Assembly (NCBI GenBank): GCA_014607495.2
Contig: CP053167.1
Location: 3,224,001 to 3,288,000 of the forward strand
Origin: Carposina sasakii
Lineage: Eukaryota; Arthropoda; Insecta; Lepidoptera; Carposinidae
Direction of reading: 5' to 3'
DNA length: 64,000 nt
Part shown: positions 5,318 to 57,300 of the stretch, in pieces
How the letters are laid out: each line of letters opens with the position of its first letter
Numbering within the stretch: position 1 is the first letter of the stretch
Program-made: the position numbers and the translations under genes
Notes under the pieces: generated by a model
Told to the model about the DNA's origin: nothing
Seen by the model: only the letters and a program-made list of their open reading frames with translations
The model's database searches: none

Positions 5318-5539
5318 TATATACATAAAAACTTCATCTATTTCAAAACCTTCTTAGTAGTCGATAGTAGGTAAATAAATCGCTGTATAAGAAGTCCGGC
5401 GGATTATTCACGAACTAAATAAAAATGTATGAAACAGTGTGCAGATTGCAAAGATAGTTTACCGCAGCGCAGTTTGCGCTCACGGCCACTTGCATTCCGT
5501 GCATACATATGTAACAATATAAGTATTTTTAATTTTCAG

Positions 5540-18171: not shown

Positions 18172-18224
18172 TGTTGAGTTGACTGATTGAGAGTGGTTTA
18201 CGGATACCGGATAGAGGTATTCAA

Positions 18225-18420
18225 GAGTCACTGGATGGAAGTGACTAGACTGGTATACGGAAGCTGGATGGAAGTTTCCAAGAGTCACTGGATGGAAGTG
18301 ACTAGACTGGTATACGGAAGCTGGATGGAAGTTTCCAAGAGTCACTGGATGGAAGTGACTAGACTGGTTTACGGAAGCTGGATGGAAGTTTCCAAGAGTT
18401 GCTAGATTGAGGCAACTAGA
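18225..18420 (+). repeat. 57-bp tandem repeat with hairpin, about 3.5 copies
   Basis: Units start at 18225, 18282 and 18339 with GAGTCACTGGATGGAAGTGA, each able to pair AGTCACT with AGTGACT. A decayed fourth unit at about 18396 keeps a stem (GTTGC with GCAAC) although its bases changed. It lies between the end of the polyprotein and the 3' LTR. Confidence 0.8.
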
Positions 18421-19183
18421 CTTACTTGACTGACGTTACTCTATATGGATTGTGTATACTGTAGCCTTGTTTTGGAATTATTTACCTTGTGTGTGACGAT
18501 TATAGTCGATTTCTTTGTTTAATAGTATGCAAGTAAATTTGTAACAATTTGGTATAGTAAAATGATTTTCAATTTTGATTATGATGATATTGGTTCGTTT
18601 GAAATAAAGGTTTAGTAACGTTTAAATGAAGTTTTTACTATCCCAATGGTCAGAAAGACCGAGCGTGAGACATGTTACTTTGCAAAATCCTCTTTCTTTC
18701 CAGAAACCCCACGCGAGGACGCGTGAGTTGTCAAAATGGCCGTGTCGGAGATCAAGATGTCATATCCTACAGTCGGATCTCCAACACCATCTATTTTCAA
18801 TCGTTGAAGTTAGAAACGTCAAGTCGACAGCGATCACTGACTTGAGGACAGCTGTCACTTGGGTAAAGACAAGACAGAGTACTGAGAGGGCGCCACTGTA
18901 GATTTACAACGACGACCGGGTCGTTTGAATTGAGCCGGAGGGTATTCTGTCTTTTTGTTGCGTCTGTCGAGCGAAGCAGGGGTGCTAATCAGCCTCTGTC
19001 TTGTACTTACCACGTTTCTACGTTATCCGCTAGAATCCTAGTAATCTTGTGCGTAGATACAGTGAAAGTGTTTGTGATTCCTAATTAAGCTTGTTTACTA
19101 CACGCCGCATTCTTTATTTCGGATTTTGGAAGATGTCGGACACACCTAACGGCACGCCACTCGACCCATCTACGTCATATATA

Positions 19184-21063: not shown

Positions 21064-21529
21064 TGTTACCAACTGCCCCCTCTCCCGAGCCTGGTCCTAG
21101 CAGTAGAGTATAAAAGTGAACGCGCCCCTGCTTACGCTCACTTTGCTGCCGGATTTCGAACGTGTCGGACGTGTGGTTGTTGGCTATTTGATGTTGTAGA
21201 TTCTTATTAGTTTTTCTGATTGTGAGGTTGTTTAGGTTAAGTGTTAGATTTATTGATTTCATAAGTAGTTCTAAATTGTAGAGAATTGTTAATTTTGAAG
21301 TTAAAACTGATTAGGCTTTGTAACCGTGTTATTTTTTTAAAATTAGCCCGACTGCTGGTTTTTAAGATCAGAAGTGGGATGGTAATTACCACGCGTTAGG
21401 CCGCTTATGTAGCTATCCTTGCAAACTGTAAAAAGTGTCGATTGTTGTAAGTATTGTTCTCTTTGTTTTGTAGTTTTTGTGTGATTTTTGGTAAGTACCC
21501 ACATTTTTGTTTTAAGTGAATTTTTCATT

Positions 21530-24013: not shown

Positions 24014-24750
24014 GTGGCAGACACGTTATGCTCAGTATGAGCTGACGTGTGTAGGTTATTTAGCAGACTTATCTGTGGCAGACACGTTATGCTCAGTATG
24101 AGCTGACGTGTGTAGGTTATTTAGCAGACTTATCTGTGGCAGACATGTTATGCTCAGTATGAGCTGACGTGTGTAGGTTATTTAGCAGACCTGTCTGTGG
24201 CAGACATGTTATGCTCAGTATGAGCTGACATGTGTAGGTTATTTAGCAGACCTGTCTGTGGCAGACACGTTATGCTCAGTATGAGCTGACGTGTGTAGGT
24301 TATTTAGCAGACTTATCTGTGGCAGACACGTTATGCTCAGTATGAGCTGACGTGTGTAGGTTATTTAGCAGACTTATCTGTGGCAGACATGTTATGCTCA
24401 GTATGAGCTGACGTGTGTACGTTATTTAGCAGACCTGTCTGTGGCAGACATGTTATGCTCAGTATGAGCTGACATGTGTAGGTTATTTAGCAGACCTGTC
24501 TGTGGCAGACATGTTATGCTCAGTATGAGCTGACATGTGTAGGTTATTTAGCAGACCTGTCTGTGGCAGACATGTTATGCTCAGTATGAGCTGACATGTG
24601 TAGGTTATTTAGCAGACTTGTCTGTGGCAGACATGTCGTTCTCAGTGAGAGACGATATGTGGTTGATGATCTTGTGTGTACACATTTAACGTGTCGCACG
24701 GCAGACATGTTAAGTTTTGATTAAATCTCAACATGTGGTGATTACTAAAA
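24014..24750 (+). repeat. 61-bp tandem hairpin repeat, ten units plus variants
   Basis: Units begin GTGGCAGACA at 24014, 24075, 24136, 24197, 24258, 24319, 24380, 24441, 24502 and 24563, with a divergent unit at 24624 and another near 24700. Each can fold ACACGT...GCTCA-gta-TGAGC...ACGTGT. Units with ACATGT on the left mostly have ACATGT on the right, so the stem is kept by paired changes; the divergent units also keep a stem. It lies between the integrase remnant and the 3' LTR. Confidence 0.9.
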
Positions 24751-25955: not shown

Positions 25956-26667
25956 GACACTGTACCACTCTCGATCACGATCCGCAACGCACTGAACGAC
26001 GAATTCATCCGCGACGGACGCATAACCTCATCCGCGTGAGGACGGTCCGCATCGCACTGAATAGGCCCTAAGTTTAATAAGAAAATTCTTACTTTTCTTT
26101 TAAGTTAGCTCTTTGGGGTATTTTGCTTGTGTTGGGCTCATTATGAGCTATATGTCTTAGAAGATTATTTTGTGAAAGATATGGTTTCACGAGTGCACGC
26201 GTAAGATCATGTTATTGAACTAAATCATCTTCTTAGTCATAATTATGTCACGTTAAAAAGAGTCTCAATTAGTATGTGAATTTTATATGCTGAAACCGGC
26301 GAGATCAATGCACCAACAGAAGAGCAGACGGACGAGGACGCCGCAGTAGCGTCAGAATTGGCCGTGTTACCAACTGCCCCCTCTCCCGAGCCTGGTCCTA
26401 GCAGTAGAGTATAAAAGTGAACGCGCCCCTGCTTACGCTCACTTTGCTGCCGGATTTCGAACGTGTCGGACGTGTGGTTGTTGGCTATTTGATGTTGTAG
26501 ATTCTTATTAGTTTTTCTGATTGTGAGGTTGTTTAGGTTAAGTGTTAGATTTATTGATTTCATAAGTAGTTCTAAATTGTAGAGAATTGTTAATTTTGAA
26601 GTTAAAACTGATTAGGCTTTGTAACCGTGTTATTTTTTTAAAATTAGCCCGACTGCTGGTTTTTAAG

Positions 26668-27345
26668 AATATAATATCTTGACTAAGATCAATGTATAAA
26701 AACACTTCTCCATTAATATAATCCGTTAGGATATAGTTGATCGTTTCATCTTTAAACATTGTGCTGAGGGATTCAGTTTGATAGAATTTGACAAGCAATC
26801 AGCGATTTTTGTACAATTTTCGCTATCGCTTTGCTTTTGCTAGTTAGGTAATAAGTTCTATTCTATTCTATTATTTATTGTACACAGACATTTTATATAG
26901 AAAAACATTTTACATTGACAAGTTTTTCCCTTTTGAGATACGGAACCCTAAAAATAATACGGGTGTAATTATTTGTTGACAATGTTTTTTCATATATTTG
27001 GATTAAGATTTAGAATTTATTTTACTAACATATACCTACTAGTTGCGTTCTGAACGAAACACTAATGTGACGGACATATTTTAAGACGATTTGATAATAT
27101 TGTAAAGACCAATTGCTATTTAGGCGAATTGCTACATAGACTGACCAGTTTTATATTAGACGCAATGATACATGAATCAAACAAGACTCTCATGACATGA
27201 ATCAAGTAAGGCATGTTTTCGCGGCGAGGTGCGGTGCGTGTGGCTACTGCAAATCCTAATGTGTTACAGTAAACACACATGAAGGAGTACAACACACTCA
27301 GAAGTGTGTATAAAACGACCACAAGACTCTATAGTTTGTATACAG
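26668..27345. other. AT-rich spacer with a MITE fragment
   Basis: Contains the right flank of the gypsy insertion (matching 47464-47540 inverted) and, at about 26793-26853, a fragment of the MITE family described at 57223 (CAATTTTCGCTATCGCTTTG...TTGCTAGTTAGGTAAT). No gene seen in the rest. Confidence 0.55.
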
Positions 27346-29313: not shown

Positions 29314-29342
29314 TATAACATAAAAGCTTTATTTATAGCTGG

Positions 29343-29777
29343 AGAGCTAGTGAACCCTGGGAGTAACGGTCTCCCTGTAAGGTTAGAAATTTGTCTATTT
29401 ACGATTTATGGCATGCTAAGAGCAATAGCCATGACCTGGCAGGCGTCAGCCCTGCACGTCATCAGCCCCTTTATTTTTTGAACTGTTTAGTAAATTGAGT
29501 TTTAAAACTTGTTTCTGTTAATTTGAAAATTTAATAGGATAAAGTTTATTTATTGTAAATCTTAAAAAAAAAATTGACAGGCGATTACAATAAGCAGAAG
29601 TATATGACAGATCAATTAGAAAACTCACAGTTGATGAGGTAAAATAAACTTTATCCTGTATACTTAAAATTTTTATATGTTTTCAAGTAAACGTCTCAGA
29701 GTAAATATGTACAATGCCAGGCGGTTTTGAACAGCATAAGACCTAGACAGGCGAGGGGACAGCTGCTAAGGGCGTGC
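29343..29777 (+). repeat. left 435-bp terminal inverted repeat
   Basis: Matches the reverse complement of 44272-44706 with about six differences. It contains its own internal inverted pair, GGATAAAGTTTATTT (29537-29551) and AAATAAACTTTATCC (29642-29656). Confidence 0.9.
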
Positions 29778-30140
29778 GAGTGAGAGGTGTTGCGTGAATG
29801 CCTATAGTGCGAGTGAGACCGTTTATCTAGTACGAAGGGACGTATACCTGCTCTCGAGCAACAATGTACAGAGAAGAATTTCGTCAGTTGTGCCAACGAT
29901 TTTTACTCGACTGGATGCTTTGAGCTATAACATCTCTTATGTTGAGTGATTTCGAATTTTTAAAAAATCATACTTTATATTATTATCAATTGTGCAGTGA
30001 TATTGTGTATTGTTGTACTTTATATTAACATTCCAGTAAATAGTGTGCAAGATGGAATTTGAACACGTGGTTTGTGTGATTTGTAATGAAGACACTGATG
30101 AAAAAACTGTACGATTTACAGAGACTACGTTCAATAAAAG

Positions 30141-30600
30141 TGTAGTGATCTCACGATCACCCGTTTTGTCACGGACTTAATTTTATGTTATTGTGTATTG
30201 TCCAAATTATTATTATTATTTACATAATTATTTATTTCATGTACTTATGCAATTATTTTATTTACAATGTCAAAATATAAATCTAATAAATATATCAAAC
30301 AATGTCGCGCATTAGATATCTGCGGCATGTCGCAATCGGCGTCTATTGTGCACAGGCTACCTCAGCACCACACACCCCGTGCATTCCCAAGGCCTGCGCA
30401 CCCGGCGACCGGCCGCAAGCGCCGCCTCTCGGCAGTCTGCCCATAACTCCGACGCGGAACGTATGTCTGTTTGCTCCCCGACGACTCGCTTAAATACGTG
30501 CGTTCTCATTTGCAATATCCCATTGCCTATTGCTTTCCTATCTCGCTTGACTGTGCAGCGCCTTCTATTTTTTATTAAGCTTAGCCTTTCTAACGCTTTA
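30141..30600 (+). repeat. 5' LTR of the gypsy element
   Basis: 460 bp, TGTAGTGATC...AACGCTTTA, followed at once by GTGGTGCCCCGAATAGG. Confidence 0.9.
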
Positions 30601-30622
30601 GTGGTGCCCCGAATAGGACACA

Positions 30623-31421
30623 ATGTTGCAGTCAGACAGCGAACGGAAGACAGAAGAGGCCGTTATTTTGAACAGGGTGTGCGTACGGGTACCTCCTTTT
30701 TACCCGTCCAAACCAAAACTGTGGTTTGCCTCTTTGGAGAGCCAGTTCGTGCTTTCTGGCGTGACGTCGGATACTACGAAGTACCACTACGCCGTGTCCC
30801 ACCTGGAGCCTCAGTACGTGGAGATCGTGGAGGACATCGTAGAGGGACCCGTCACCGGCAACAAGTACGAGACGTTGAAGACGGAGCTCGTGAAGAGGTT
30901 GTCCGCATCACGGGAGAAGCAGGTGCAGCAGCTTCTTCATCACGAAGAGTTGGGAGACCGCAAGCCATCCCAGTTCCTGCGGCGGTTACGGAGCCTGGCA
31001 GGTACCAGACGACCTACTCAGGACCCTGTGGGCCAGTCGTCTACCCAGTAGTGTGCAGCCTATCATCGCATCCCAGGCTAAGATGCAGCTGGACGAGGTC
31101 GCGGAGCTCGCCGACCAAGTGCTGGATGCTGTGTCGCCGAATTTGCAGGTGGCAGCCGTTTCTGCAAGTTCCAGCAGATCGAGTGAGATCGCAGCGTTGA
31201 CCCGGCAAGTGGAAGCGTTGGCCGCGAAGCTCGACCGTATGTCGCGGTCGAAGTCGCGACATCGGTCATCTTCACATCGCCGAGGTCGATCGTCGTCAAC
31301 GAGATCTCACTCCAACTATCGGAAGTTCCCGGTGTGCAGGTACCACCACAAGTTCGGTGACCAGGCGAGACGGTGTGCGAAGCCCTGCGACTACGCGGGA
31401 AATGCGACAGGCAGTCGGTGA
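30623..31421 (+). pseudogene. gypsy gag, one frameshift
   Basis: From ATG 30623: VNR-like start, VRVPPFYPSKPKLWFASLE, TSDTTKYHYAVSHLEPQYVE, then LKTELVKRLSASREKQVQQL and KPSQFLRRLRSLAG. Near 31003 reading shifts; the next frame reads PIIASQAKMQLDEVAELADQ, a coiled EIAALTRQVEALAAKLDRM, an Arg/Ser tract and [17 protein letters not shown], a finger of this clade. The stop TGA (31419-31421) overlaps the next ATG by one base (TGATG), a layout that can allow re-initiation of pol. Confidence 0.75.
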
Positions 31422-34400
31422 TGGCGACCGACGACTGCCCAAGTGCTGGTCGCCTATTTGTGACGGACATACGGACAAAAGTGCAGTTTTTAGTGGATAC
31501 CGGGAGTGATTTGTGCGTGTTCCCCCGTAAATATCTCAAAGAATTTCGCTCGAAAACTAACTATGATTTGTGTGCCGCTAATGGGTCAGCCATACATACC
31601 TATGGTTTCTATCACTGCGTGTTAAACCTAGGTTTACGCCGTGACTTTGCTTGGCGTTTTATTGTAGCGGATTTAACAAAGGCGATAATAGGCGTGGATT
31701 TCTTGTCTCACTATAATTTAATCGTTGACATAAAAAACCAACGCCTCATCGACGGCAACACTACGCTCGCGACCGCGGCTTTGCTTGCGCGCGGTAATGA
31801 AAACATTTATTCGGTGAAAGTGGTATCTGGTAACTCCGTGTATCATAACATACTAGCGGAATACCCCGACGTTACTCGTCCACATGGACTACACCGCACA
31901 CTACACCACAACACTGTACACCACATCCGCACTACACCTGGGCCACCAGTATCTTGTACACCACGCAGACTCGCACCTGACAAACTTAAAATTGCAAAGT
32001 CTGAGTTTGAGTCGATGTTGCAGAATGGTACCTGTCGGCCTTCGGAATCAGCGTGGGCTTCACCCCTTCACCTCGCGCCTAAGAAGGACAACGAGTGGCG
32101 TCCTTGTGGGGATTACCGCATGCTGAATGCCCGAACGATTCCCGACAGATACCCTATCAAGCACATCCACGACTTCGCTCATTCTTTGTCAGGTTGCACA
32201 TTTTTTTCAACAATAGATCTTGTCAAGGCCTACAACCAGATCCCGGTGTACCCTGATGACATCGCGAAGACCGCTATCACAACGCCGTTCGGCCTTTACG
32301 AATTCCCGTTCATGACGTTCGCACTTCGTAATGCCGGACAGACGTTCCAGCGTTTCGTCGACGAGATGCTTAGAGGTCTGGACTTCACGTACCTGGATGA
32401 CTTTCTTGTCTTTTTCAAGGACCAGAAGACGCACGAAGACCATCTTCGTCAACTTTTCGCCCGTCTGAAGCAGTACGGCATGGTCGTTAATACGGCCAAA
32501 TGCGTGTTTGGCGTTCCCGAGGTGACATTTTTGGGTTACCTCATATCAGGCAAAGGTACCACTCCTCTACCAGCGAAGGTTGAAGCTATCAAAAGCTTCC
32601 CAGTCGGTAAAAGAGCTGCGCCGATTCCTCGGCATGGTCAACTTTTTCCGCAGGTTCATCCTAGGTGCAGCTGATCAGCATGCGCCTCTCAACTCGCTGC
32701 TTACCGGATCGGTAAAGGGTTCACACCCGGTCCATATCACCGGTAAGTTACTGGAGGCTTTTGAAGCCTGCAAAGAAGGTCTCTGTCAGGCCGCCTTGCT
32801 GGCTCATCCAAACTGTGACGCTAGGTTAGCGCTCGTCACAGACGCCTCCGATCGGGCTATTGGCTCGGTGTTGCAGCAGCGGAGTAGCAGTGGTGAGTCC
32901 TGGGAGCCTCTGGCGTTCTTCTCTCGTGGGCTGAGTCCTACACAGCAGAAGTACTCACCCTACGATCGAGAACTACTCGCCATCTACGAGAGTATTAAGT
33001 ACTTTCGCCATATGCTCGAGGCCCGAGACTTTACCGTCTACACTGACCACAAGCCCCTGACCTTCGCCTTCCATAATCGGAAGGAAAACTGCTCGCCAAG
33101 ACAGTTCCGGCATCTGGACCTGATCGCGCAGTTCACCACCGACATCCGACATATTTCGGGTAAGGACAACGTGGTAGCCGATACCCTCTCACGTATCGAG
33201 GAGATTGCCCAGCCTGTTGATCCAGAACAGCTAGCAGCCGCTCAGCATTCTGATCCAGAGCTCAGGCAACTCCTAGATGGTGCGACGTCGTTGCGCCTTA
33301 AACCGATCAGGATCCCAGGCAGCAACATGGAACTGTTTTGCGACGTGAGCACGAACGTGGTAAGGCCGTTCATCCCCAGGATGATGCGGAAAAGAGTGTT
33401 TGAGAGTCTACATTCTCTCAGCCACCCTGGTGCTAATGCTACAGCCAAGCTGGTCTCTGAGCGGTACGTCTGGCCTGAGGTACGAAAGGACTGCAGAAAC
33501 TGGGTCAGAGCATGCTTAGCGTGTCAGCAGTCCAAAGTGACACGCCACACAAGCGCTCCCCTCGGCAGCTTTAAACTCCCTGTAGCCCGTTTCAAGTTCG
33601 TCCATATCGACCCGATCCGACCATTACCTTCGTCCCAAGGCTATAGATATTGCCTCACCGCCATCGATCGCTTTACGCGTTGGCCTGAGGCAATACCACT
33701 ACAGGACATAACAGCTGAGGCTGTAGCAAAAGCCTTACTCAGTGGCTGGATTTCCCGGTTCGGTTACCCTGCTGACATCGTGACAGATCGTGGCAGACAG
33801 TTCGAATCAGCTCTATTCAAGAATCCTTCACAGATTGCTGGATTCCACCACCGCCAAACCACCGCCTATCATCCAGCCTGCAATGGTCTCGTGGAAAGAT
33901 TCCATCGGCAGCTGAAGTCTGCCATAATCTGCCACGGTGATGGGAATTGGGTAGACTCTCTTCCTCTTGCGTTGCTCGGTGTTCGCAGTGCCTTCAAGGA
34001 CGATCTGCAGACCACTTCAGCCGAGTTGGTATATGGGGAACCTTTGCGCCTGCCAGGTGAATTTTTTGATTCAGATGCCGACTATACCCTAGACTTGACG
34101 GAGTTCACGTCAAGACTACGGAGTATAGTTCAGAGCCTGAATCCGTCACCTGCCTCTCGTCATCACGGGAAACGTCCAACGTTTGTTTTCAAGGACTTAG
34201 CCACTTGCACTCACGTGTTCCTGCGTGACTGCACTGTTGGTGGATCCTTAAAACCGGCGTATTCTGGACCGTACGAGGTGCTTCGGAGGGACGATAAAGT
34301 TTTTACTCTTCTTGTCCATGGTAAGAAAGTCACCGTCTCCATAGATCGCATAAAACCTGCGTACATACTGCGTGACCCAGATACCACACATACACATCAC

Positions 34401-34583
34401 TCAACACAAACACATAGTCATACATCCAATCCCACACACACTGCACAAAAACAACAATACGACAAACACAACACAAAAACACACGTGACACACGGAAATC
34501 AGAAACCACCAGATCGCGATGGTAATGTTTTCAGAACCCGATCAGGACGTAAGGTTAGATTTCCCGACTATTATCGCCCTTGA
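31421..34583 (+). pseudogene. gypsy pol: protease, RT, RNase H, integrase; one frameshift
   Basis: Starts at ATG 31421. Protease: [13 protein letters not shown]. Reverse transcriptase: [36 protein letters not shown] and the YLDD box in [11 protein letters not shown]. Near 32600 a small indel shifts the frame within the [17 protein letters not shown] region. RNase [59 protein letters not shown]. Integrase: HHCC zinc motif ([10 protein letters not shown]...CLACQQSK), then [22 protein letters not shown] and [10 protein letters not shown] (DDE). It ends with a His/Thr-rich tail, stop at 34581-34583. Apart from the shift the domains look intact. Confidence 0.85.
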
Positions 34584-34603
34584 CGGTCTCAAGGGGGGGC
34601 TGA

Positions 34604-35082
34604 TGTAGTGATCTCACGATCACCCGTTTTGTCACGGACTTAATTTTGTTATTGTGTATTGTCCAAATTATTATTATTATTTACATAATTATTTATTTCA
34701 TGTACTTATGCAATTATTTTATTTACAATGTCAAAATATAAATCTAATAAATATATCGAGGGACAAACAGACAGCGTCAAACAATGTCGCGCATTAGATA
34801 TCTGCGGCATGACGCAACCGGCGTCTATTGTGCACAGGCTACCTCAGCACCGCACACCCCGTGCATTCCCAAGGCTTGCGCACCCGGCGACCGGCCGCAA
34901 GCGCCGCCTCTCGGCAGTCTGCCTATAACTCCGACGCGGAACGTATGTCTGTTTGCTCCCCGACGACTGGCTTAAATACGTGCGTTCTCATTTGCAATAT
35001 CCCATTGCCTATTGCTTTCCTATCTCGCTTGACTGTGCAGCGCCTTCTATTTTTTATTAAGCTTAGCCTTTCTAACGCTTTA
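34604..35082 (+). repeat. 3' LTR of the gypsy element
   Basis: 479 bp; same ends as the 5' LTR plus a 21-bp segment (GAGGGACAAACAGACAGCGTC-like) absent there. Confidence 0.9.
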
Positions 35083-36975
35083 AAAGTAAATCAATATTGA
35101 AAATAAGAAAAGACAATAATTTAAAATTTAAAGATATTTCTTTGCCAGAGGAAATTAACGCAAATACTGGTTACCATGTAAAATGTTATAAAAACTTTCT
35201 TGCCGTGATGAAAAAATATCGCACGAGTGAATCATCAACTTCTTCAAATCTACCATCATCATCATCAGGTATTTTTTAAATCAAGATTTATTGATTATCA
35301 TTGACGGAAATAAAAATAATTACGTAAAAATAAAATTATTATTTATTATGAATATCTCAATGGTTTTTTTTTATAGAAATGCCATCGACAAACGTAGAAA
35401 CAGTGACAGTAGCCCCTCTAATAGCTACTGAAGAAAGCGGAGCATCAACATCTGCTGAAGTGCCCGTTACTAAAACAAGCCATGCAGATAGGCTATGTGT
35501 GTTTTGTCAAAATAAATATAAACGAGTGAAAGGGCGATACCAACCTCTTCACTCGTCAGAAAGATCAAGTTTGATGCAAGTTCTGAAAGAATTTGGCGAA
35601 AATAATGAATTTTATAACAAAGTTAGCGCAGATTCAAGCCCATTGATTTTTTTATCATAATAGCTGTCGAACAATTGCCATATATACTTTACAAGAACAA
35701 GCGAGGACAAAATCACCACCGAAGAAGACTTGGAAATATTTTCACAAACTGGCTTTTGATGAAATGCAAATTTTTATCAGCGAGGAAATAATAAATAAAA
35801 AATGGATATTTTCATTCACATACTTATGTAAATACTACTTTGAATTATTACAAGGAATACTCGAGGAAAATAATGAAGATGTTGATGTTAATTTTAGTAC
35901 CCAGCGGTTTGAAGCTAAATTGTTACAGAATTACGATGAAATTACAATTATTAAGAGGGACAGAAAAAATATGTAACATTAAAGGATTCTGTTGTTGATG
36001 CAAAATTATGTGAACTGTTGGAAGATGCAGAGATATTGCAAAGAGCAGCATCAATTTTACGAAAAACTATTTTAAAAATGACAAAGAAAGAATTACCAGA
36101 AAACATAACAACTGCTGATTTGTTAAATGGCGAATGTGAAATACCTAAGCAATTACTTGATTTTTTATTGTTTTCTTCTGGGTGGTTATAAACGACGTCG
36201 GAGAATTAGTGAAGGTTGTATAAGGAAAACTAATTCATTGGCAGAAGATTTGATTTATAATGTTACTAATGGGTCTGTCAAAACCAAAAAACACATCACT
36301 CTGGGCATGACATTGAAGAGTTTGACGAGCAGCAGAAAGATCGTAGAAATTATAAATAAATATGGTCATTGTTGTAGTTATCATGTTATTGAAGAATTGG
36401 AAACTGCAGCAACAACTACGTTATTGAATCGTTCTAAAATTTGTCCAAATGAAATTTGTAAAAGACAAGATTTATTCACAGCCTTCAGTAGCCTTCGACA
36501 ACTTCGATCGTTACGTTGATACTGCTACTGGTAAAGATACCCTACATGATACGGTAAGCATAATCTATCAAACAGTTCTAGAAAATGAGGAATCAACAAA
36601 GGGAACTTCTGAGCAACTCCAAAATCCCTCTGAACATGGTGAGTGCACAGGCGAGCTATCCGTTTCATGTGTTCATGCAGGACATAAAAGAAGAAGGACT
36701 CTTGATGCTATCATCCCAGAGTTAGTCCCATATTCAAAGAAACCCAAGATGAATGATGAATTATTGTCTTTATCTGACAATTTAAGAAATGAAGCAACAC
36801 CAGCTTCACTAGAAACAATTTATCAGCAAAAGTTTCTGTGGATGCTTTGCCATGCTCTAAAAATTAAAAAAAACATCGATGTGGGTTGGGTTCCATCATA
36901 ATTTAAACAAAGATTCTCATAATAACAAAGAAAAAATTTGTTATCTCACACCAATAAACGAATCACCGACAAATA

Positions 36976-37339
36976 CAGGGTGTTTTTTTGTGGCCACCTT
37001 TAACGAAGGGTGCGTACTCTATACATAAAATAAAGTAAGTTTATGCCAAAAAAAATGCTGGGAAAAAATTTTTTTAATTACTTGATCTGGCAATATTTAT
37101 AGTGTCTAGTGTTTATGCTAGTTTATTTATAGACAGATATTAATTATTTCTCGTGAAAAAATCTTGCTGCGTGCGTCTATGTGCATTTATGCAGAAAAAC
37201 GCAGTCTATTTACTCAACTTTGGACCCTAATATTTTGGAAACCACACACTTCCCAGGTATGCTTCCATGGAGAAAAATGATCGTGATGATGAGGAGATTC
37301 CGTAGTTTTCGGGAACGTTGACAACCAAAAATCACCCTG
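36976..37339. mobile_element. CAGGGTG-ended short TIR element, copy 2
   Basis: 364 bp, CAGGGTG...CACCCTG, flanked by TA (36974-36975 and 37340-37341). It interrupts the large element's gene between SPTN and IPVVIKTMKQ; removing it with one TA keeps the frame. Confidence 0.8.
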
Positions 37340-38312
37340 TATACCAGTTGTAATAAAAACTATGAAACAAAGTCAAAGTATTGCTGCAGAAATTGGACAA
37401 CCTTGCATTAATGTAACATATGATCTAGCTATAGCAAAAATTGCTATGCAGGTACAGTCTACAGAAAAGCCAGTTTATGATAATTTATTTATCCATTTAG
37501 GACCGTTCCACATCATGTTAGCATTGTTTAGAGCAATTGGAAAATTTATTGACGACAGTGGAATAATGAATGTAGCTGTTGAAAGTGAAATTATCGCAAA
37601 TGGTTCAGTAGATGGATTTTTGAAAGGAAAACATTTTAATCGATGTACGCGGCTGCATCCATTAATGGCACTAGGACTAGAAATATTATGTTTTCAATCT
37701 TTCATAGAAAAAGAAGATATAAGTATTGATGAAGATGTTTACAATAATCTCTCTACATTTATCGATGGTAATGAACCGTTTGTGAACGTCATAGAAAATG
37801 AAGCAATATCAACATTCTCCATTGAGGGATCGCCCACCACCGGGCCCTATACCCTCCGCTGACCCTCGGATCTGCCTACTCATGATCACGAACACAAGAC
37901 ACTACAGTCGCAACGAGAAGCCAGATCCAAGCACCTAGCATGCAACCATAAATACATAGCTGCTAATCCGAAAACCAATTAAAATTTTAATCGACATATG
38001 TTTCGCCAACACCCGTGGCATCATCAGGATTAGTTTTCCATGTTAGTTCTATCTACCGAACCAACTAACTAACAACTAAAACCAATGTATTGCAAATCAT
38101 TTTTATACCCTCAATCAACATAAAAAAATAAATGTTAATACCTACATATTAGTTTAGAAATGTAAAATTATTATAGATAAATAATTATTAAAAATATACA
38201 TTAGTTATTAATTGTTAAATTATTAGAAGAAAATTAATTTATAATAATATTAAATATATATAAAAAAGACCATATCAAGGCTGTACGACAAAGTCATTAC
38301 CTTTGTCCGATC

Positions 38313-40103
38313 CTATTGACTTTGACATTGACAGATTGCAGCCAAAACTGGGCTAGTGTTTACAAAATCTATTTGATTATTTACCAAATTAATACCTGAA
38401 AATTTTGCTTTCATAATTTCTAGTTTTTCTAAAATAGACAGACGGATGCCTTTATCTGCAACATGTAGAACTCTTAACTCATTATTATCTGCCAGGGAGT
38501 GGCCCGCCTGGAGTAAATGTTCGGCAAAGTTGGATTTATTAGGATTACCATTTCTAAAAGCTGATATATGTTCCTTGTATCGAACATTAAAACTGCGACC
38601 AGTTTGTCCAATGTAACAAGCATCACATTCATCACACTTCAACTGGTATACACCTGATTTCTTTTTAAGTTCCAACTTTTGTTTTGTGTTAATTAACTTT
38701 TGTAATGAATTATAAGTCCTAAACGCCACAAATATGTCTTCTTTTTTTAATAATTTAGATAATTTTTCTGAAAAACCTCCATAATATGTCAAACTACCAG
38801 TGTATGATTTTTGAATCTGATCAACTTTAGGGTATAACATTTGTTTAACCAAAATGTTTTCCTTTTTATTGACCAGATTATAAATTAATTGAGGACTGTA
38901 CCCATTAGATCTGGCAATTTGAACAATGGTATTAAATTCTTTATTATAATTGTAATTGTTAAGCGGTAAAGTTACCAGTCTATGTATCATAGACTTATAA
39001 GCCGCTAATTTATGTTGCCATGGGTGGAAAGAATCAACCGGTATTGTGACATCTGTATGGGTAGGTTTCCGGTATACAGCAAAATCATGAAATTTATCTA
39101 ATCTTGATATAGTTAAATCCAAAAAATTTATGCTATTATTAACTTCTTCTTCAATTTTGAATTTAATTTTGGCATGCTTGGTATTAATTTTGTTGACAAA
39201 AACATGAAACTGTCTCACTGAGCCTGTCCAACACAAGATAACATCATCTACATATCTAAAATAATATTTTATCTTACTATTGTTAACTATAAACTTATTT
39301 TCATACCAATCCATAAAAATTTCTGCAAGAAACGGTGACAACGGAGAACCCATAGCCAAACCATCCTTCTGTAAATAATAGGTGTTCCGATAACAAAAAT
39401 AATTTTGGTTCATACAAAGTCTAGTCAGTCCAATAATGTTATCAACCTCCGTTGGATGTAAATTGACTTTATCACACCAAGTCTTAATTATGTCTAAACA
39501 ATCTTTATAAGGAACATTTGTAAACAAACTTTCTACATCTAATGAAAATAATTTTGAATTTGTAGGCAATTCTATATATTTAATTTTTTCTATTAAATCT
39601 AAACTATTTTTAACACTATACTTAGGTGTGAATTGAATTTTTTCCTTTATATAGTTATTTAAAAACGTTGCCAATTTATATGCAGGCGCTCCAATATAGG
39701 AAACTACAGGTCTAACAGGAATATTAATTTTATGTAATTTTGGTAAACCGTATAACATTGGTGTGACAGGATTCATTGAAATTACGCGTTCAATTAAATG
39801 GGGGCATTTTTTGGGAAAAATATATTCTGAATTGGCAATACATTTCTTCAATTCTGCATTGAATTTATTTGTAGGATCAAAGGGCAATGTTTGAAATTCA
39901 TTTGTATTTAAGATTTCCATTACCTTTTCATGATACATATCCTGTTTCATAATAACCAATGTATTGCCTTTGTCTGCTTTACTAATTAAAAGGTTGTTTT
40001 GATCTAACTTGAGTTGTACAGACTTATATATTTTTGAGTAATATGAAAATGAAGTTTTGTTAAGATTACTAGAGTTATTAATTTCCTTATGTAATTCCTT
40101 CAT
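38313..40103 (-). CDS. Penelope-like reverse transcriptase with GIY-YIG endonuclease, minus copy
   Basis: 596 residues from the first Met at 40103; the upstream part is cut by the junction with the plus copy, so the true N-terminus is missing. RT blocks: ISKADKGNTLVIM, PMLYGLPKLHK, FSLDVESLFTNVPY, GLAMGSPLSPFLAEIFM and the catalytic YVDD in YFRYVDDVILCW. C-terminal GIY-YIG-type nuclease: GVYQLKCDECDACYIGQTGR, then RYKEH and NFAEHLL. The CCHH-like insert fits Penelope/Poseidon elements. No stops inside. Confidence 0.85.
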   Translation of the reverse strand: MKELHKEINNSSNLNKTSFSYYSKIYKSVQLKLDQNNLLISKADKGNTLVIMKQDMYHEKVMEILNTNEFQTLPFDPTNKFNAELKKCIANSEYIFPKKCPHLIERVISMNPVTPMLYGLPKLHKINIPVRPVVSYIGAPAYKLATFLNNYIKEKIQFTPKYSVKNSLDLIEKIKYIELPTNSKLFSLDVESLFTNVPYKDCLDIIKTWCDKVNLHPTEVDNIIGLTRLCMNQNYFCYRNTYYLQKDGLAMGSPLSPFLAEIFMDWYENKFIVNNSKIKYYFRYVDDVILCWTGSVRQFHVFVNKINTKHAKIKFKIEEEVNNSINFLDLTISRLDKFHDFAVYRKPTHTDVTIPVDSFHPWQHKLAAYKSMIHRLVTLPLNNYNYNKEFNTIVQIARSNGYSPQLIYNLVNKKENILVKQMLYPKVDQIQKSYTGSLTYYGGFSEKLSKLLKKEDIFVAFRTYNSLQKLINTKQKLELKKKSGVYQLKCDECDACYIGQTGRSFNVRYKEHISAFRNGNPNKSNFAEHLLQAGHSLADNNELRVLHVADKGIRLSILEKLEIMKAKFSGINLVNNQIDFVNTSPVLAAICQCQSQ

Positions 40104-40147
40104 TTCATTTTTGTTATCGGAACACCTATTATTTACAGAAGGATGGT

Positions 40148-41194
40148 TTGGCTATGGGTTCTCCGTTGTCACCGTTTCTTGCAGAAATTTTTATGGATTG
40201 GTATGAAAATAAGTTTATAGTTAACAATAGTAAGATAAAATATTATTTTAGATATGTAGATGATGTTATCTTGTGTTGGACAGGCTCAGTGAGACAGTTT
40301 CATGTTTTTGTCAACAAAATTAATACCAAGCATGCCAAAATTAAATTCAAAATTGAAGAAGAAGTTAATAATAGCATAAATTTTTTGGATTTAACTATAT
40401 CAAGATTAGATAAATTTCATGATTTTGCTGTATACCGGAAACCTACCCATACAGATGTCACAATACCGGTTGATTCTTTCCACCCATGGCAACATAAATT
40501 AGCGGCTTATAAGTCTATGATACATAGACTGGTAACTTTACCGCTTAACAATTACAATTATAATAAAGAATTTAATACCATTGTTCAAATTGCCAGATCT
40601 AATGGGTACAGTCCTCAATTAATTTATAATCTGGTCAATAAAAAGGAAAACATTTTGGTTAAACAAATGTTATACCCTAAAGTTGATCAGATTCAAAAAT
40701 CATACACTGGTAGTTTGACATATTATGGAGGTTTTTCAGAAAAATTATCTAAATTATTAAAAAAAGAAGACATATTTGTGGCGTTTAGGACTTATAATTC
40801 ATTACAAAAGTTAATTAACACAAAACAAAAGTTGGAACTTAAAAAGAAATCAGGTGTATACCAGTTGAAGTGTGATGAATGTGATGCTTGTTACATTGGA
40901 CAAACTGGTCGCAGTTTTAATGTTCGATACAAGGAACATATATCAGCTTTTAGAAATGGTAATCCTAATAAATCCAACTTTGCCGAACATTTACTCCAGG
41001 CGGGCCACTCCCTGGCAGATAATAATGAGTTAAGAGTTCTACATGTTGCAGATAAAGGCATCCGTCTGTCTATTTTAGAAAAACTAGAAATTATGAAAGC
41101 AAAATTTTCAGGTATTAATTTGGTAAATAATCAAATAGATTTTGTAAACACTAGCCCAGTTTTGGCTGCAATCTGTCAATGTCAAAGTCAATAG
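40148..41194 (+). pseudogene. Penelope-like RT/GIY-YIG, truncated plus copy
   Basis: 348 residues identical to the C-terminal part of the minus copy, starting just before AMGSPLSPFLAEIFM and including YVDD and the GIY-YIG domain. The N-terminal RT blocks are absent. The stop at 41192-41194 mirrors that at 38313. Confidence 0.85.
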
Positions 41195-44100
41195 GATCGG
41201 ACAAAGGTAATGACTTTGTCGTACAGCCTTGATATGGTCTTTTTTATATATATTTAATATTATTATAAATTAATTTTCTTCTAATAATTTAACAATTAAT
41301 AACTAATGTATATTTTTAATAATTATTTATCTATAATAATTTTACATTTCTAAACTAATATGTAGGTATTAACATTTATTTTTTTATGTTGATTGAGGGT
41401 ATAAAAATGATTTGCAATACATTGGTTTTAGTTGTTAGTTAGTTGGTTCGGTAGATAGAACTAACATGGAAAACTAATCCTGATGATGCCACGGGTGTTG
41501 GCGAAACATATGTCGATTAAAATTTTAATTGGTTTTCGGATTAGCAGCTATGTATTTATGGTTGCATGCTAGGTGCTTGGATCTGGCTTCTCGTTGCGAC
41601 TGTAGTGTCTTGTGTTCGTGATCATGAGTAGGCAGATCCGAGGGTCAGCGGAGGGTATAGGGCCCGGTGGTGGGCGATCCCTCAATGGAGATTTGAACTT
41701 CCGAATAGTGACGCCTGATACAATTCAATAATATCAACATTGATGACTCGATACCAATATCACAAAGAACAATGTAGAAAAGGAACTTTTGGTAAAACGC
41801 CTCAATTTTATGTTATTTATATGGATCTTGTTCATCACTATCAGTTACTGAGTCGAAGCATTAGGACTGGAAACTTTTCTTTGTACAAATATATTCTGTC
41901 AAAAATAGCAAATATATTTTTTATGACAAATCAGCCTAATTATTCACGATGGCTGATAAAATACCATGATAATTTGTTAAAAGTTGGTCTTACACATCCC
42001 TCAATTGAAAAATTTATGAAAGATGGATACCTTGGAATCAAACGTACTAATAAATCTTTCTCTAGACAGCCAATAGATCTAGTACTTGAACAAACTATTA
42101 ATGCCGACGCGGGAAAAAGATTAACTGGTGTAATCCAGTTCACACATTCTATTTCCGCTCGTCAGCGATGGGCTAGAAGTCACGACATAAGAACAACAGT
42201 CATATCTCAAACTCTGGACATTACTGGTTTACGAAGAAAAAATGATGTATAGCAGACCTGGAAGAACATGCAATGAAAAGAGATTCAGCACAGTTGTGGA
42301 AGTTCATAAATACCTTTGAGAAATTTCTAAATCCATTTATGTTGAATCTAAACAAAGATTGTCTGTATAACATCGGTAATGGTACAGTAGCTTCGATCGC
42401 AGTACAGGATTACTTATTGAATTTTATAGAATCAGGAGAAAGATTAAAAAAGAATTTTATAACTGAATGTTCACAGAATGGAAAAAGATTTGAAGAAAGA
42501 ATTGTACAAGTGAAAATTATGAATTTTGCCTCTGAGAAAAAAAAGAAAAAAATCAAAGTCGGTGATAAGGTTCATGAAATCCGTGTGCAACGTGATTTCT
42601 TTGGTCGCCTGTTAGCTCTGTCAATACAACATAACTTTGATTTGGAAAAGACGTTATCATACCCCATTACAACTGTTCCATTGTCATTGTATCATGAAGA
42701 TGGTACAATACATAAAACTCAGAAATCAGCAATGGTTGAAATTTTAAAGGCAAACGTCAACAGTGAAGAGGTACCAAGACGTTTTGATGTTGTCATTTTT
42801 GATGGATTCTTCTTACTGCATACATTCAAAAATATCCCTAAAACATTTGGTGGTATTTCCAAAAAAATTATGTCGCTACTAACAGCTACACATGCCTCAC
42901 GAGTAGATATCATTTTCGACCAATACTTTTCGCCGTCAATTAAAGATTATGAACGAGCCAAACGACAAGAAGTACGAAACATAAATTATTTCATTGCCGG
43001 ACCAGAACAAATTCGACCAGTTGATTTTATGAAAGAAGTTCGTAACATACAATTTAAAGAAGCTTTCGTAGATTTTTTAATTACACATTGGAGCACAAAT
43101 GAAATGATAGAGTTTATCGGGAATACCATAGTGAACTTAAATTACAAACAATGCCATACTTATAGTGTCCACAATAACTCTGTGATTGTCGATATAAATG
43201 ATGATTGTGTGTGATGTATGAATATCGTGCCAACATCATGAAGAGGCTGATACGAAAATAATATACCATACATGCCAAATGGATGAAGATGTATCCGACG
43301 TATTAATAAAAACATGTGACACAGACATTTTAATATTACTGCTCGGAAACATGGACCATCCCCACAATAATAATTTAAATATCTATATGGAATATGGCAC
43401 TAGTAATTGTAAAAAATGGATAAATATTTCTGAACTATATACAAAATTGGGACCTTCTATATGTCAAAGCTTACCGGGATTTCATGCATTCACCGGTTGC
43501 GATTTCAATCCGTCCTTTTCAAGAAGAGGTAAAAAAAACCATTCCAAATATTGCAAAAATCGAGTGTATATCAGAAGGCATTTAAAGAATTAGGAAACGC
43601 AGAAATAGTACAGAAGAAAGAAAAAATTTTCCCGATACTAGAGTTTGTATGCCAAATGTATGGTTTGAAATGTTCAAAATTAAATAATGCACGTTATGAA
43701 AAGTTCCTTGCTACGTAAAACACAAATAATCCTAAAGTGTTTATGAAAAAAGTAGTAAGCTATGATTCATCAAATTTACCACCCTGTCAACGTGAACTAC
43801 ATCAACAATTATTGAGAACTGCCTACATTACAAATATATGGCGAAATTGTAATTTAAAAGAACCAACAATTCTTACACCTGAAAATAACGGTTGGAACAT
43901 AATTGATAGTCGTTACGATTTTAATTGGTTTGAGGGGAATACGGTTCCATCTTCTATATACGACATACTTTTACAAGGACCTGCTGATACTGCCACAGCA
44001 CAGTAACATACAACTATTTTATTCCGTAACATTCCTACGTAATTGAGCTTGATATTTAATTTTTAACAACCTTATTGATTCATTAAAATAATTTTTTTTA

Positions 44101-44271
44101 CTATTTTCAGATGAGGAAAACATTGTTGAAGAATCAGATGATGATGAAAACAGTGATAGCGAAATTTCGGATGATGCTGAAGAAAATGAATGTTAAAAAT
44201 AATGTAGATTGCATAAAACTCAATAAAATACATTGCATTTACTGTATGCGTTCATGTAACATTTCTTATTT

Positions 44272-44706
44272 GCACGCCCTTAGCAGCTGTCCCCTCGCCT
44301 GTCAAGGTCTTATGCTGTTCAAAACCGCCTGGCATTGTCCATATTTACTCTAAGACGTTTACTTGAAAACATATAAAAATTTTAAGTATACAGGATAAAG
44401 TTTATTTTACCTCATCAACTGTGGGTTTTCTAATTGATCTGTCATATACTTCTGCTTATTGTAATCGCCTGTCAATTTTTTTTAAAGATTTACAATAAAT
44501 AAACTTTATCCTATTAAATTTTCAAATTTACAGAAACAAGTTTTAAAACTCAATTTACTAAAACAGTTAAAAAAATAAAGGGGCTGATGACGTGCAGGGC
44601 TGACGCCTGCCAGGTCATGGCTATTGCTCTTAGCATGCCATAAATCGTAAATAGACAAATTTCTAACCTTACAGGGAGACCGTTACTCCCAGGGTTCACT
44701 AGCTCT
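44272..44706 (-). repeat. right 435-bp terminal inverted repeat
   Basis: Inverted copy of 29343-29777, ending GGGTTCACTAGCTCT. The same internal 15-bp inverted pair is present. The gene's AATAAA signal lies just inside, near 44222. Confidence 0.9.
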
Positions 44707-44732
44707 TGGACTATTACTTCATCAACAAATTA

Positions 44733-47453
44733 CCGTAATCTAGGGTGTCTTGCAACTATGGGGTGATAAACAACATCTTCGAAAAAAAAAATCTGGTCAC
44801 AAATTTATCTATGATAACGGCCCTGATTCGAAAATATAATGTGTTTTAGTTTTTGAACGAACTTCATATTTTTATGTTGGCAGCACTTCGTTTTGACAGC
44901 TGTCTTACTTTTGTACATTTTCGTCGCCAAACGAACACTACCTGTTGAAACCGGTTACGCTGATGTAAAAACTTTGAAAATATTAACTTGAAAGACTGCC
45001 ATAATTGATTGTATTTGTCTACGTGCCATTTAATTATTTAGTTTTGAACATATATCTACAAAAACGTAAGTATTACTATTATTAGTTTTCCAGATAAGTT
45101 AATTAATATTTTTAGGTTACTTTTCGTGTTAAAAATGGGGTGAATAACAACAACTTATGGGGTCATTCACAACAACTCATGGGGGCATTCACAACAGCTG
45201 ATCAGGTTATTTATTATCATTAGTTTTGAGTTAAAAATAACATTTAAATGATCTATTTTAAATATGTTGTTACATATATTTAATGCGCTTTTAATATTGT
45301 TGTAGATTTGAAGTGGACAATGCCTAGAAATTACAAGCCGGATCCTCGGAGTAAGAAGCATATTTCGTATAATAAAGACGACATTGAGAGGGCTTTGAAA
45401 GATAAAAGGGTAAATAATATGTCTTACAGGTCGGCAGCAGCCAAACATAAGATAGAGTATACAGTCCTGTTTAGGCACGGTACTCGAATTAATGTAAAAA
45501 AACTTGGTGGTCAGACAGTTCTTGGGCCTGATGTAGAAAATATTATAATTGAACATATTAATACATGCTCTGAGTGGGGATATCCTATGGATCAGTATGA
45601 CTTACGACTTCTGGTAAAAATGTATTTAGATCGGAAAGGTGTTCAATGCCAAAGATTTAAAAATAATATGCCGGGTGTAGATTTTTCACTAGGATTTTTA
45701 AAACGCCATAGGAATAAAATATCCGAAAGATATGCTCAGAATATTAAGAGGGCTCGGGCCAATTTTTCGGCAGAGATGATCAATGACTATTTTGATCAAC
45801 TAGAAATAACTTTGAAGGATGTCCCAGCAACCCATATCATAAACTACGACGAGACAAACCTCACTGACGATCCAGGTAGAAAGAAAGTCATTGTGAAAAG
45901 GGGATCTAAATACCCAGAACGTGCCATGAATACTACAAAGTGTTCAATATCATTAATGATGGCTGGTACGGCCAGTGGGTATCTTTTCCCACCCTATGTC
46001 ATTTATAAAGCTCAACATTTATACGATTTATGGAAAACTGGAGGACCAAATGGGACCAGGTACAATAGGACATCCTCAGGTTGGATTGATATAACTACAT
46101 TTGAAGACTGGATCAATACTATTGTTATTCCTTATGCTAAAAAACAAGAGGGACCAATTTATTTGATTGGTGATAATCTTTCGTGTCATCTTTCTTTGGA
46201 TGTCATAAATAATTGCAAAAAACATTATGTTCAGTTAGTGTTCTTGCCACCCAACTCAACACACTTGACTCAGCCCTTAGATGTGGCATTTTTTCGCCCT
46301 TTAAAAATTGCTTGGAGGGAGATATTATTAAATTGGAACAAAAGAGAGGGAAGTAAGGAAAAGTCGCTTCCTAAATCAGTTTTCCCACAGCTCCTGAACA
46401 GGTTGTATTCCAAAATTGAAGCCACTTCAGAAGCTAATTTAAAGTCTGGATTCAAAAAAACAGGAATCTCTCCTTTGAACAGAAATGAAGTGTTGAGTCG
46501 TTTACCAGGCTTTTCAACGGATTCAAATGATGATAATATTAACATTGTCAGTGACTCAGTTAAAGAAATATTAAAGTCCATGAGATACAGCGAGGAAGAC
46601 CAGACAGTAAAAAAGAAGAAGAAGCTAGATGTTCCATTTGGGAAAAGTGTTGCTGATGAAGTCACGAAAAAAAAAGAAAAACAAGCCAACAAACCAAATA
46701 AAACTCCAAAAAATGTAGATGGAAAAGCTTCCAAGGTTAAAAATAAGGTTAAAATAGAGACAGAAAAAGAATTTTGCTGTGAAATGGCAAATGAAAAGAA
46801 AATTAAGAAAAGAGAAAATGCTAAAATTGAAATTACGGCAGATTTAAAAAAAGAAAACAATGCAATAGCATCTTCTTATAAAACTGTTGATGTTGAACCA
46901 ATAGCTGGGCCTTCAAATTTGCAAATGTGTCGGGTTTGTCACTGCATTAAGAATCGACATGATAACTGGTTATCATGCAATGTTTGTTATAAAAGAATTT
47001 GCAGGAAATGCTCTGGAGATGCTTTGCCAATAGAATTCATTTGTCTGCGTTGCCTTCAAGTTGATAGTGATGACAGTGCTGCAGATGAGGATTATAATCT
47101 ATCGTCCGAAAGTCTATCGTCCGATTAATTTGAATATTGTTAATTTACTACAATGTTTTTTTTTAAAAGATTATGTCCATAAAATTACACATTATAATAT
47201 TCATTTCATTCAGTTGTTGTATTTCACCCCTTATGTCGTTTCGAATGACCCCGTGTAGAAGGTAATTTGCAACAAGGCATATTTTACCCATTTAACATGT
47301 GAACTTCCATTCGCCTCTATCTGGGGACACAAACAACGATAAAGAGACTCGTAACTCACGTAATTTATTTATCACTATTATTATAGAGCGCAAAATTACA
47401 AAGATACAAAGCTCTAAAGTGGCAAAAGTGTTGTCATTCACCCCAGTTTACGG
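44733..47453 (+). mobile_element. pogo/Tigger-like transposon with open transposase frame
   Basis: The left end CCGTAATCTAGGGTG and the right end (inverted CCGTAAACTGGGGTG) are flanked by TA (44731-44732 and 47454-47455). Sub-terminal copies of TGGGGTGA/CATT..CAACA occur near 44760, 45137, 45158 and 45178, and inverted near 47215, 47240 and 47430. At 2.7 kb with a full reading frame, it may be autonomous. Confidence 0.85.
45320..47128 (+). CDS. pogo/Tigger-like transposase with C-terminal PHD-like finger
   Basis: ATG chosen at 45320 (MPRNYKPDPRSKK), 602 residues, no stop. Domains: psq helix-turn-helix (around 15-60), CENP-B-type helix-turn-helix (about 75-150, GVDFSLGFLKRHRNKI), and DDE core with D in INYDETNLTDDPG, D in YLIGDNLSCHLS and D in HLTQPLDVAFF. 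Then comes a Lys-rich linker with several nuclear-localisation-like runs, and a Cys-rich finger (CRVCHCI...CNVCYKRICRKC...CLRCL) before an acidic Ser tail. Cut-and-paste transposase acting in the nucleus. It sits directly beside the right end of the large TIR element. Intactness suggests recent arrival. Confidence 0.9.
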   Translation: MPRNYKPDPRSKKHISYNKDDIERALKDKRVNNMSYRSAAAKHKIEYTVLFRHGTRINVKKLGGQTVLGPDVENIIIEHINTCSEWGYPMDQYDLRLLVKMYLDRKGVQCQRFKNNMPGVDFSLGFLKRHRNKISERYAQNIKRARANFSAEMINDYFDQLEITLKDVPATHIINYDETNLTDDPGRKKVIVKRGSKYPERAMNTTKCSISLMMAGTASGYLFPPYVIYKAQHLYDLWKTGGPNGTRYNRTSSGWIDITTFEDWINTIVIPYAKKQEGPIYLIGDNLSCHLSLDVINNCKKHYVQLVFLPPNSTHLTQPLDVAFFRPLKIAWREILLNWNKREGSKEKSLPKSVFPQLLNRLYSKIEATSEANLKSGFKKTGISPLNRNEVLSRLPGFSTDSNDDNINIVSDSVKEILKSMRYSEEDQTVKKKKKLDVPFGKSVADEVTKKKEKQANKPNKTPKNVDGKASKVKNKVKIETEKEFCCEMANEKKIKKRENAKIEITADLKKENNAIASSYKTVDVEPIAGPSNLQMCRVCHCIKNRHDNWLSCNVCYKRICRKCSGDALPIEFICLRCLQVDSDDSAADEDYNLSSESLSSD

Positions 47454-47566: not shown

Positions 47567-47634
47567 GATGAAAAATAACGTAGCCAATATGTAATTTAGA
47601 AAAGAGATGGTAAAATTCGTCATCCGAATAATTG

Positions 47635-47740
47635 ACCCGGTAGCTCAGTGGTTAGAGCGGCTGGCACGGTTTGCAGTGGTCGTGGGTTCGATTCCCACTC
47701 GGGTGAAGAATTTTTTCCATTTCTTTATTAATAATTTCAT
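47635..47740 (+). repeat. tRNA-headed SINE
   Basis: Acceptor-like ACCCGG...CGGGT, an A-box-like TAGCTCAGTGGTTAGAG and a B box GGTTCGATTCC (47635-47704), followed by GAAGAATTTTTTCCATTTCT shared with 21013 and inverted at 47545. The anticodon arm does not pair well, so a SINE head is preferred to a tRNA gene. Confidence 0.6.
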
Positions 47741-54300: not shown

Positions 54301-57300
54301 CACTGAAACAACGATATGTTAAAATTTACATACATATACAGGGTGTAAAAAGACAACGATGTTTTTTAATACCTCGTATTCTTTGTAAGATTATGATTAT
54401 TTTCGGAACCAACCCTCGGAAACGACAAAAAAATATTTAAAAAATATGAAAAAATACTGTCATTTTATTGCAAGCAATGTATTCGTTTGATGCTTAAAGT
54501 ACAAATGTACCTACAAAAGTAACATTATAACATGGTATCTAAAATGTTTGTTAACCGATTCCAGATGGACTTATGTAATAGTATATAATATTAATGTCCA
54601 AAGTTACATCAATATCTTGGAAACCCGTGGTTTCCCATGGGTGCTTCCATAGAAAAAAATTATAGTGATGTTACAAAGAATACAAGCAGGAAGATTATGA
54701 ACGACTTATAGGACGGCGAAACAATGGCAGACGTGGCTGTAGCCTGCTGGCATGTCCTGGGGTAGACCTATATCCAGTAGTGGACTGCATTAGGCAGATG
54801 TGTACCTAAATATATCAACATCTCTATGTTACCTCCTTCTTTGACTAGATACAGGTTCCTGTTGTCCTTGGCCTGTTTCTTATCTCCTTTCTGCAGGTTC
54901 TCTCTCTTGAGGGCCGGTTTAACTTGCACTAGCTGACCTTCAAGTTTCAGCTGATCGGGTGGCAGAGACAGGAATGTGTCTGCGTCTGTCTGGTTCTGTG
55001 GATATATACATATATACGGCATATACATTTACGGCATGATATATACCAACTGCTTCAACTTATCATGATGGGCAAAATACAGGGGACAAGACGAGTCGGA
55101 AGACGAAAAAAATCTTGGCTGCGAAACATTCGTGAGTGAATGTGGAGGAGCTGTTCCGAATGGCCAGGGACAAGTCTGCATTTAGTAAGCTGACGGCTGA
55201 CCTCCAGTAATGGAGTGCCACTACAAAAAGATACATATAATGGACGCCCGCGACTCTGTCCGCGTGGAGTGCAGAAACAACAAAATGTCGAAATATTTTT
55301 CTTGTAAAGTTTCATCAAAATCGGTCCAGCGGTTTGGCCTTGAAAGCATAACAGACAGACTTTTGCATTAATACTATTAGTATGGATACATAGATATTGA
55401 CACGGCTGTGTTCCCTAAATGGGAAAGCCTAAACTGCAGGATCCCAAGAAGGCCATGATTGGCATAGCATCGACAAGTTGCTAGCTAATCGCCCGGGAGA
55501 CTGTCCGTGTTCCTTAGTTGACTCATACGACATACACAGAAGGAAAACCACAAAATTATAATTACGAGGGCTGTTTGATAAGTCCTTTTAAAAACTATTT
55601 GTAAAACATTTTTTCTGGTAAATGGCGTTAACACTGGCAAGCACAATCTTTCAAATGAAGACTGTCAAAAATTCAGCAAAAAAAAACAAGTTTTTGTCAG
55701 TATAACCATTGTTTAACTGTGATCACTCGTAAATATTCAACAACTATGGAAAAAACTGAATTTCGTGCCGTTATAAAACATTTTTTTATGAAGGGTTGCA
55801 GTGCTGCCACAATAAAAACTGAACTTGATTCTGTTCATGGCACTAACGCACCAACGTTGCAGACTGTTTATAACTGGATAAATGATTTTAAACGTGGTCG
55901 GTCAAGCACATCTGATGCTCCACGCTCTGGTCGCCCAATCGAAGTCACTACTGAGGATGTTGTTGAAGAAGTCCATAATATTGTACTCGACGACCGCCGA
56001 GTGAAGGTGCGTGAAATAGCTGAGAACACAGGCATCTCCACTGAGCGAGTACATAAAATCCTGCATGAAGATTTGGGTATGACAAAGCTGTCTGCACGAT
56101 GGGTGCCACGTTTGTTGACAATCGAACAAAAACACGAAAGAAAGCGAATTTCAAAACTGTGTTTGGATATGATGAAGCGTAATCCTCGGAATTTTTTGAG
56201 TCGATTTGTCACTGTGGACGAAACTTGGGTCCATCATTATACACCTGAATCAAAACAGCAATCAAAACAATGGATGGCGACTGGTGAACGTGCCCCAAAG
56301 AAGGCCAAGACTGTTTTGTCGGCTGGAAAGGTCATGGCGACAGTCTTCTGGGATGGCGAAGAAATCATTATGATTGATTACTTGGAAAAGGGAAAGACTA
56401 TCACTGGCCGTTATTACGCAGAGTTATTGGACCGTTTTAATGCCGAATTGTTGGAAAAACGACCAAAATTGTCCCCCAAGAAAGTCCTCTTTCATCAAGA
56501 CAATGCCCCAGTGCACACGTCAACTATTGCAATGGCCAAAATCCACGAGTTGGGCTTCGAACTGGTTCCGCATGCTCCGTATTCGCCGGATCTAGCTCCG
56601 TGCGATTATTACCTATTCCCAAATCTGAAAAGATGGCTTGGAGGGCAAAAATTTTTGACAAATGAGGACTGCACGCTGTTGTAAACGCCTATTTTGAAGA
56701 CCTCGACAAAGTCGTTGGCGATGAACCATTGTGCACTCCGAAACTTGTACGACTCCCAAGTTTGCTCGTTGTGGTCAAACGCCGATAATATACCAAATAA
56801 AGAAGTCATTATTTTAGATATTTTTTTCCAAAATTATTGAGGGTACCTCGTCGCCACTGTTAGGTATGTAGGTTGGAGACAAGTGAAACAACCGGTAGTT
56901 GGTAGCGCACTGACGTGTATTCACAATAGCTCGATACAGTGGTGTGGGTAACCTCACACACATATATAACAACGTATTTTTTGGAGGGGATAAAAAAATT
57001 GGAAACTCGCTGGAACAAGTGTTTGGCCCTCAAAGGAGACTATGTTGAGAAATAAATGTAAATTGTTTAAAAAAAAAAAAAAAAATTACTTTTTAAAACG
57101 ACTTATCAAACAGCCCTCGTAAAAGCCACACAAAAATATACACAGTACTTATTGATAGCACTCGAAGAGGATTTACTGAAGTACCCATAGAAGACGAAAA
57201 AACGGCTCCTTTATTACCTAACTAGCAAAAGCAACGCGATAGCGAAAATTTTACAAAATTCGCTGATTGCTAATCAAATTCGTATTACGTAAATAAATTT

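Follow-up and report, generated by a model that had tools for sequence, protein, structure and literature searches.

A decayed DNA transposon of Carposina sasakii, probably AcademX-type, with a predicted DDE domain and a fused FEN1/XPG-like nuclease

Introduction

What moves a transposon whose gene carries the acidic motifs of a FEN1/XPG nuclease? The question is raised by a 64,000-nucleotide stretch of the Carposina sasakii genome (Lepidoptera, Carposinidae; GCA_014607495.2, contig CP053167.1, positions 3,224,001 to 3,288,000, forward strand), hereafter the window, in which an element with long terminal inverted repeats (TIRs) occupies positions 29343 to 44706. A first-pass annotation had proposed that the nuclease, instead of a DDE enzyme, could drive movement of this element, and knew of no named superfamily for such transposons. 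We conclude with good confidence that it is a decayed, non-coding AcademX-type cut-and-paste DNA transposon whose protein joined a DDE domain to a fused FEN1/XPG-like nuclease. We reject the proposal of a nuclease-only transposon, as the same protein holds a DDE-like domain whose triad is near-invariant. Elements of this kind appear to have been described already under the name AcademX.

Domains of the encoded protein

The DDE domain was recovered from three pieces on the forward strand, each recognised from its translation, the alignment of relatives and the predicted structure. The first piece (36482..36895) offers two candidates for the first catalytic D at 36497-36499 and 36506-36508 (AFDNFDR), the second (37314..37823) holds the second D at 37422-37424 (VTYDLAIA), and the third (41728..42249), which also gives a weak DUF6589 match, comprises a helical insertion and the catalytic E at 42088-42090 (LEQTIN). 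The translated second piece begins inside a nested miniature inverted-repeat transposable element (MITE), with sequence of the transposon itself from about 37342. The triad is near-invariant across relatives, and the predicted structure is an RNase-H-like fold with the helical insertion ahead of the catalytic E, for which the best fold match was the P element.

Downstream on the same strand, a linker and the first half of the nuclease (42252..43208; fold from about 42720) are followed by its second half and the C terminus (43225..44003), in which the reading frame shifts near 43535 and a stop codon stands at 43716-43718. The acidic series reported in the first-pass annotation is found as described, with DG at 42801, FD (its D at 42918), EEAD at 43240, DTD at 43318 and GCD at 43501, which is the order known from FEN1. 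These positions are conserved in 99/107 to 111/111 of the relatives' rows bearing a letter, the D of DG in 111/111. Structure comparison with FEN1/EXO1/XPG 5' nucleases likewise supported the proposed nuclease, revealing fold similarity over about 245-260 residues at about 14% identity, and Foldseek with the nuclease-bearing model gave weak matches (best E 3.4e-3), to Rat1 and T5 flap nuclease. The PIN-like fold and ordered acids that define the FEN1/XPG family are thus both present, and the motif deduced from raw sequence is, judging by the predicted structure, genuine. The domain resembles the 5' nucleases FEN1, EXO1 and XPG in fold and conserved acids, and differs from them in its low identity and in being fused behind a transposase.

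The gene starts at 30052..30140 (forward strand) with MEFEHVVCVIC..., including the first CxxC, as read from the translation; several relatives start similarly. Further N-terminal pieces, identified by translation and relatives (35088..36456, forward strand), contain CxxC...HxxC modules and an upstream helical region, interrupted by an intron-like gap and by frame changes at about 35652, 35973 and 36185; similar modules occur in part of the relatives. An N-terminal cysteine-rich zinc finger is an AcademX trait, which these zinc-finger-like modules may or may not represent. The gene has no unbroken frame: DG and FD lie in another frame than EEAD, DTD and GCD. Given several frame changes and a stop, no protein is to be expected from this copy.

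Terminal repeats and target site

Self-comparison of the sequence upheld the two 435-bp inverted repeats of the first-pass annotation, placing the left TIR at 29343..29808 (forward strand) and the right at 44241..44706 (reverse strand). Over the outer 435 bp, 427/436 alignment columns are identical, with no difference over the first 137 bases, and the span from repeat to repeat is 15,364 bp. Immediately beyond both repeats, in direct orientation, stands TGG (29340..29342 and 44707..44709, strand not assigned), seen in this single copy of the element. A three-base match has a chance of 1/64 taken alone, yet this one is placed exactly at the repeat edges, and we read it as a 3-bp target-site duplication left by integration.

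Relatives of the protein

Pieces translated from the broken gene, with X at the breaks, were joined into a query that retrieved 60 relatives, and a profile built from 45 of these gave 313 matches, of which 120 were listed; both searches scored only roughly 8,000 candidates with most words in common. The best relative shares 48% identity across 94% of the query, and P0003, P0009 and P0031 are full-length relatives. Named organisms among the relatives listed are insects (sawflies, ants, wasps, beetles, butterflies and moths, an aphid, a scale insect and a lacewing) and one limpet. Some clusters represent 34 to 46 sequences, as would be expected of a mobile gene.

Pfam scans of the element's pieces and six relatives yielded no family above cut-off save zf-BED in relative P0010, in which a hAT dimerisation match fell at its cut-off; both lie on the N-terminal side and probably reflect a fused hAT part of the gene model. 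Below their cut-offs, the seven broken pieces matched DUF6589 (E 0.014) and BrxA (E 0.06), and the six relatives matched DUF6589 at best with E 1.3e-5; DUF6589 was matched in 2/8 members of A2. Our literature search on DUF6589 found no paper. A sequence search of the PDB with profile A1 returned a single ribosomal protein (E 0.46), which we take as chance, and one with profile A3 nothing up to E 1. The viral-contig scan gave 46 pattern matches, 0 of them confirmed, and a search of the viral structure library nothing with E up to 0.001.

Assignment to AcademX

Academ is one of the DDD/E superfamilies of Repbase (Kapitonov and Jurka 2010, as cited in later literature). PMC10045372 gives duplications of 9-10 bp for AcademH and 3-4 bp for AcademX, a difference that seems tied to the encoded helicase in AcademH and nuclease in AcademX; curated bivalve Academ elements average 5,565 bp. 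Our element shares with AcademX, as these sources portray it, the DDD/E transposase domain, the fused nuclease, a duplication of 3 or 4 bp (TGG, in one copy) and a length of 5-6 kb, and differs in that three nested elements and small lesions interrupt it. AcademH belongs to the same superfamily, but according to the same source has a helicase in place of the nuclease and the longer duplications. A RecQ helicase is also mentioned for Academ in PMC3627910, but has no bearing on the nuclease lineage. Further Academ and DDD/E background comes from PMC10799480, PMC9004415, PMC9587614, PMC10294476, PMC9783078, PMC5753468 and PMC4455052. KolobokE, KolobokD and KolobokP are likewise DDD/E transposons with an accessory nuclease, but the folds are lambda-exonuclease-like, DEDDh and His-Me finger, respectively.

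Among the literature matches listed, none names both Academ and XPG; Kojima reportedly described the AcademX nuclease as XPG-type in 2020. The assignment rests on domain, duplication and length features as described for AcademX. Observations that weigh against our reading include the Foldseek search with the DDE model, which gave no transposase among the 50 rows listed, and E892, the first E of EEAD, which is conserved in 99/107 rows.

A DDE/XPG transposon of an unnamed lineage distinct from Academ is an improbable alternative. In its favour, the AcademX likeness is drawn from published descriptions, the best fold match is the P element, and Pfam offers little beyond P0010. However, the size of the element fits Academ, and AcademX has itself already been reported as a DDD/E lineage that encodes a nuclease and makes duplications of 3-4 bp. 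The likeness to the Drosophila P element and hAT (Hermes) extends to the predicted RNase-H-like fold and the helical insertion before the catalytic E. Those elements make 8-bp target duplications and are not known to carry a FEN1/XPG domain, as opposed to 3 bp and a nuclease here; membership in either was rejected, the flanks sharing TGG only at the repeat edges.

Movement by the nuclease alone, with no DDE enzyme, was rejected as very unlikely: its fold and acids are well supported, but the same protein contains the DDE-like domain with its near-invariant triad, and a short duplication next to long TIRs suits DDE integration. Least credible of all is a host gene caught between unrelated inverted repeats, for which nothing direct speaks, whereas the gene resembles a transposase by fold, has relatives in clusters of many sequences and occupies the element except for the nested inserts.

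Nested elements and other features of the window

A single gene had been thought to fill nearly all the space enclosed by the repeats, but three insertions lie inside. A Gypsy long terminal repeat (LTR) retrotransposon (30141..35082, forward strand), delimited by its LTR pair (30141-30600 and 34604-35082), domains and boundaries, sits within the first exon; a domain scan detected reverse transcriptase, RNaseH and integrase, and a 4-bp duplication, AAAG, flanks it at 30137-30140 and 35083-35086. When its flanks were rejoined, 3/10 trial joins read on, all in one frame, the single-AAAG join among them. The 364-bp MITE (36976..37339, strand not assigned) has CAGGGTG...CACCCTG ends with TA on either side, and a related copy lies at 4936-5321 (90.7% over 386 columns). 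The third insertion, a Penelope-like retroelement (37817..41729, strand not assigned), was recognised by its reverse transcriptase (RVT_1 match), inverted arms and duplication. Its two 1,585-bp arms are identical and stand head to head, a GIY-YIG match falls below its cut-off, and the 12-bp duplication AATATCAACATT (37805-37816 and 41730-41741) flanks the element. Without the three inserts the transposon measures about 6.1 kb (6,141 bp with insert bounds differing by a few bases).

Elsewhere in the window, an LTR element at 16018-19178 has TATA-type flanks at either end, and its 436-bp LTRs are 99.5% identical. It resembles a retrotransposon that encodes gag only: one 603-amino-acid open reading frame (ORF) matches a zinc knuckle and, below threshold, gag, and no further ORF of at least 160 amino acids is listed inside. 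Just beyond the right TIR, a 614-amino-acid ORF (45284-47128) has a DDE_1 domain (pogo/Tigger-like); a second DDE_1 ORF, also with HTH_psq, lies at 344-1597, and a mariner-type transposase ORF of 341 amino acids (Transposase_1, HTH_48) at 55659-56684. A tandem array at 24014-24636 has 10.2 copies of a 61-bp unit (97% matches), and a 304-bp direct repeat (21064-21367 and 26365-26668) is 100% identical. The tRNA-like sequence at 47633-47707, with an anticodon call of 4 bases, may be the head of a tRNA-derived short interspersed nuclear element or a pseudogene.

Proposed mechanism and implications

For an intact element, we propose that the zinc-finger-like and winged-helix-like N-terminal parts would bind the long TIRs and that the P-element/hAT-like DDE domain, given its predicted fold and near-invariant triad, would cut and join the DNA. 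The fused nuclease may process 5' ends or flaps in excision or repair. Integration left TGG on each side, and three subsequent insertions together with small lesions would have silenced the element. More tentatively, and with clear doubt on our part, the nuclease could supply a second active site on which transposition depends, cutting the non-transferred strand or trimming 5' flaps, such that movement by two nucleases sets the 3-bp duplication; if true, this would be unlike classical DDE-only transposition.

The nuclease is best seen as part of a transposase with two domains, apparently of an already described kind, and the notion of a nuclease transposon working without a DDE enzyme needs correcting. 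What is worth keeping is the evidence from predicted structures that one protein unites a DDE core like that of the P element with a nuclease resembling FEN1, and the question it raises, namely what role a 5'-nuclease domain plays within a DDE transposase.
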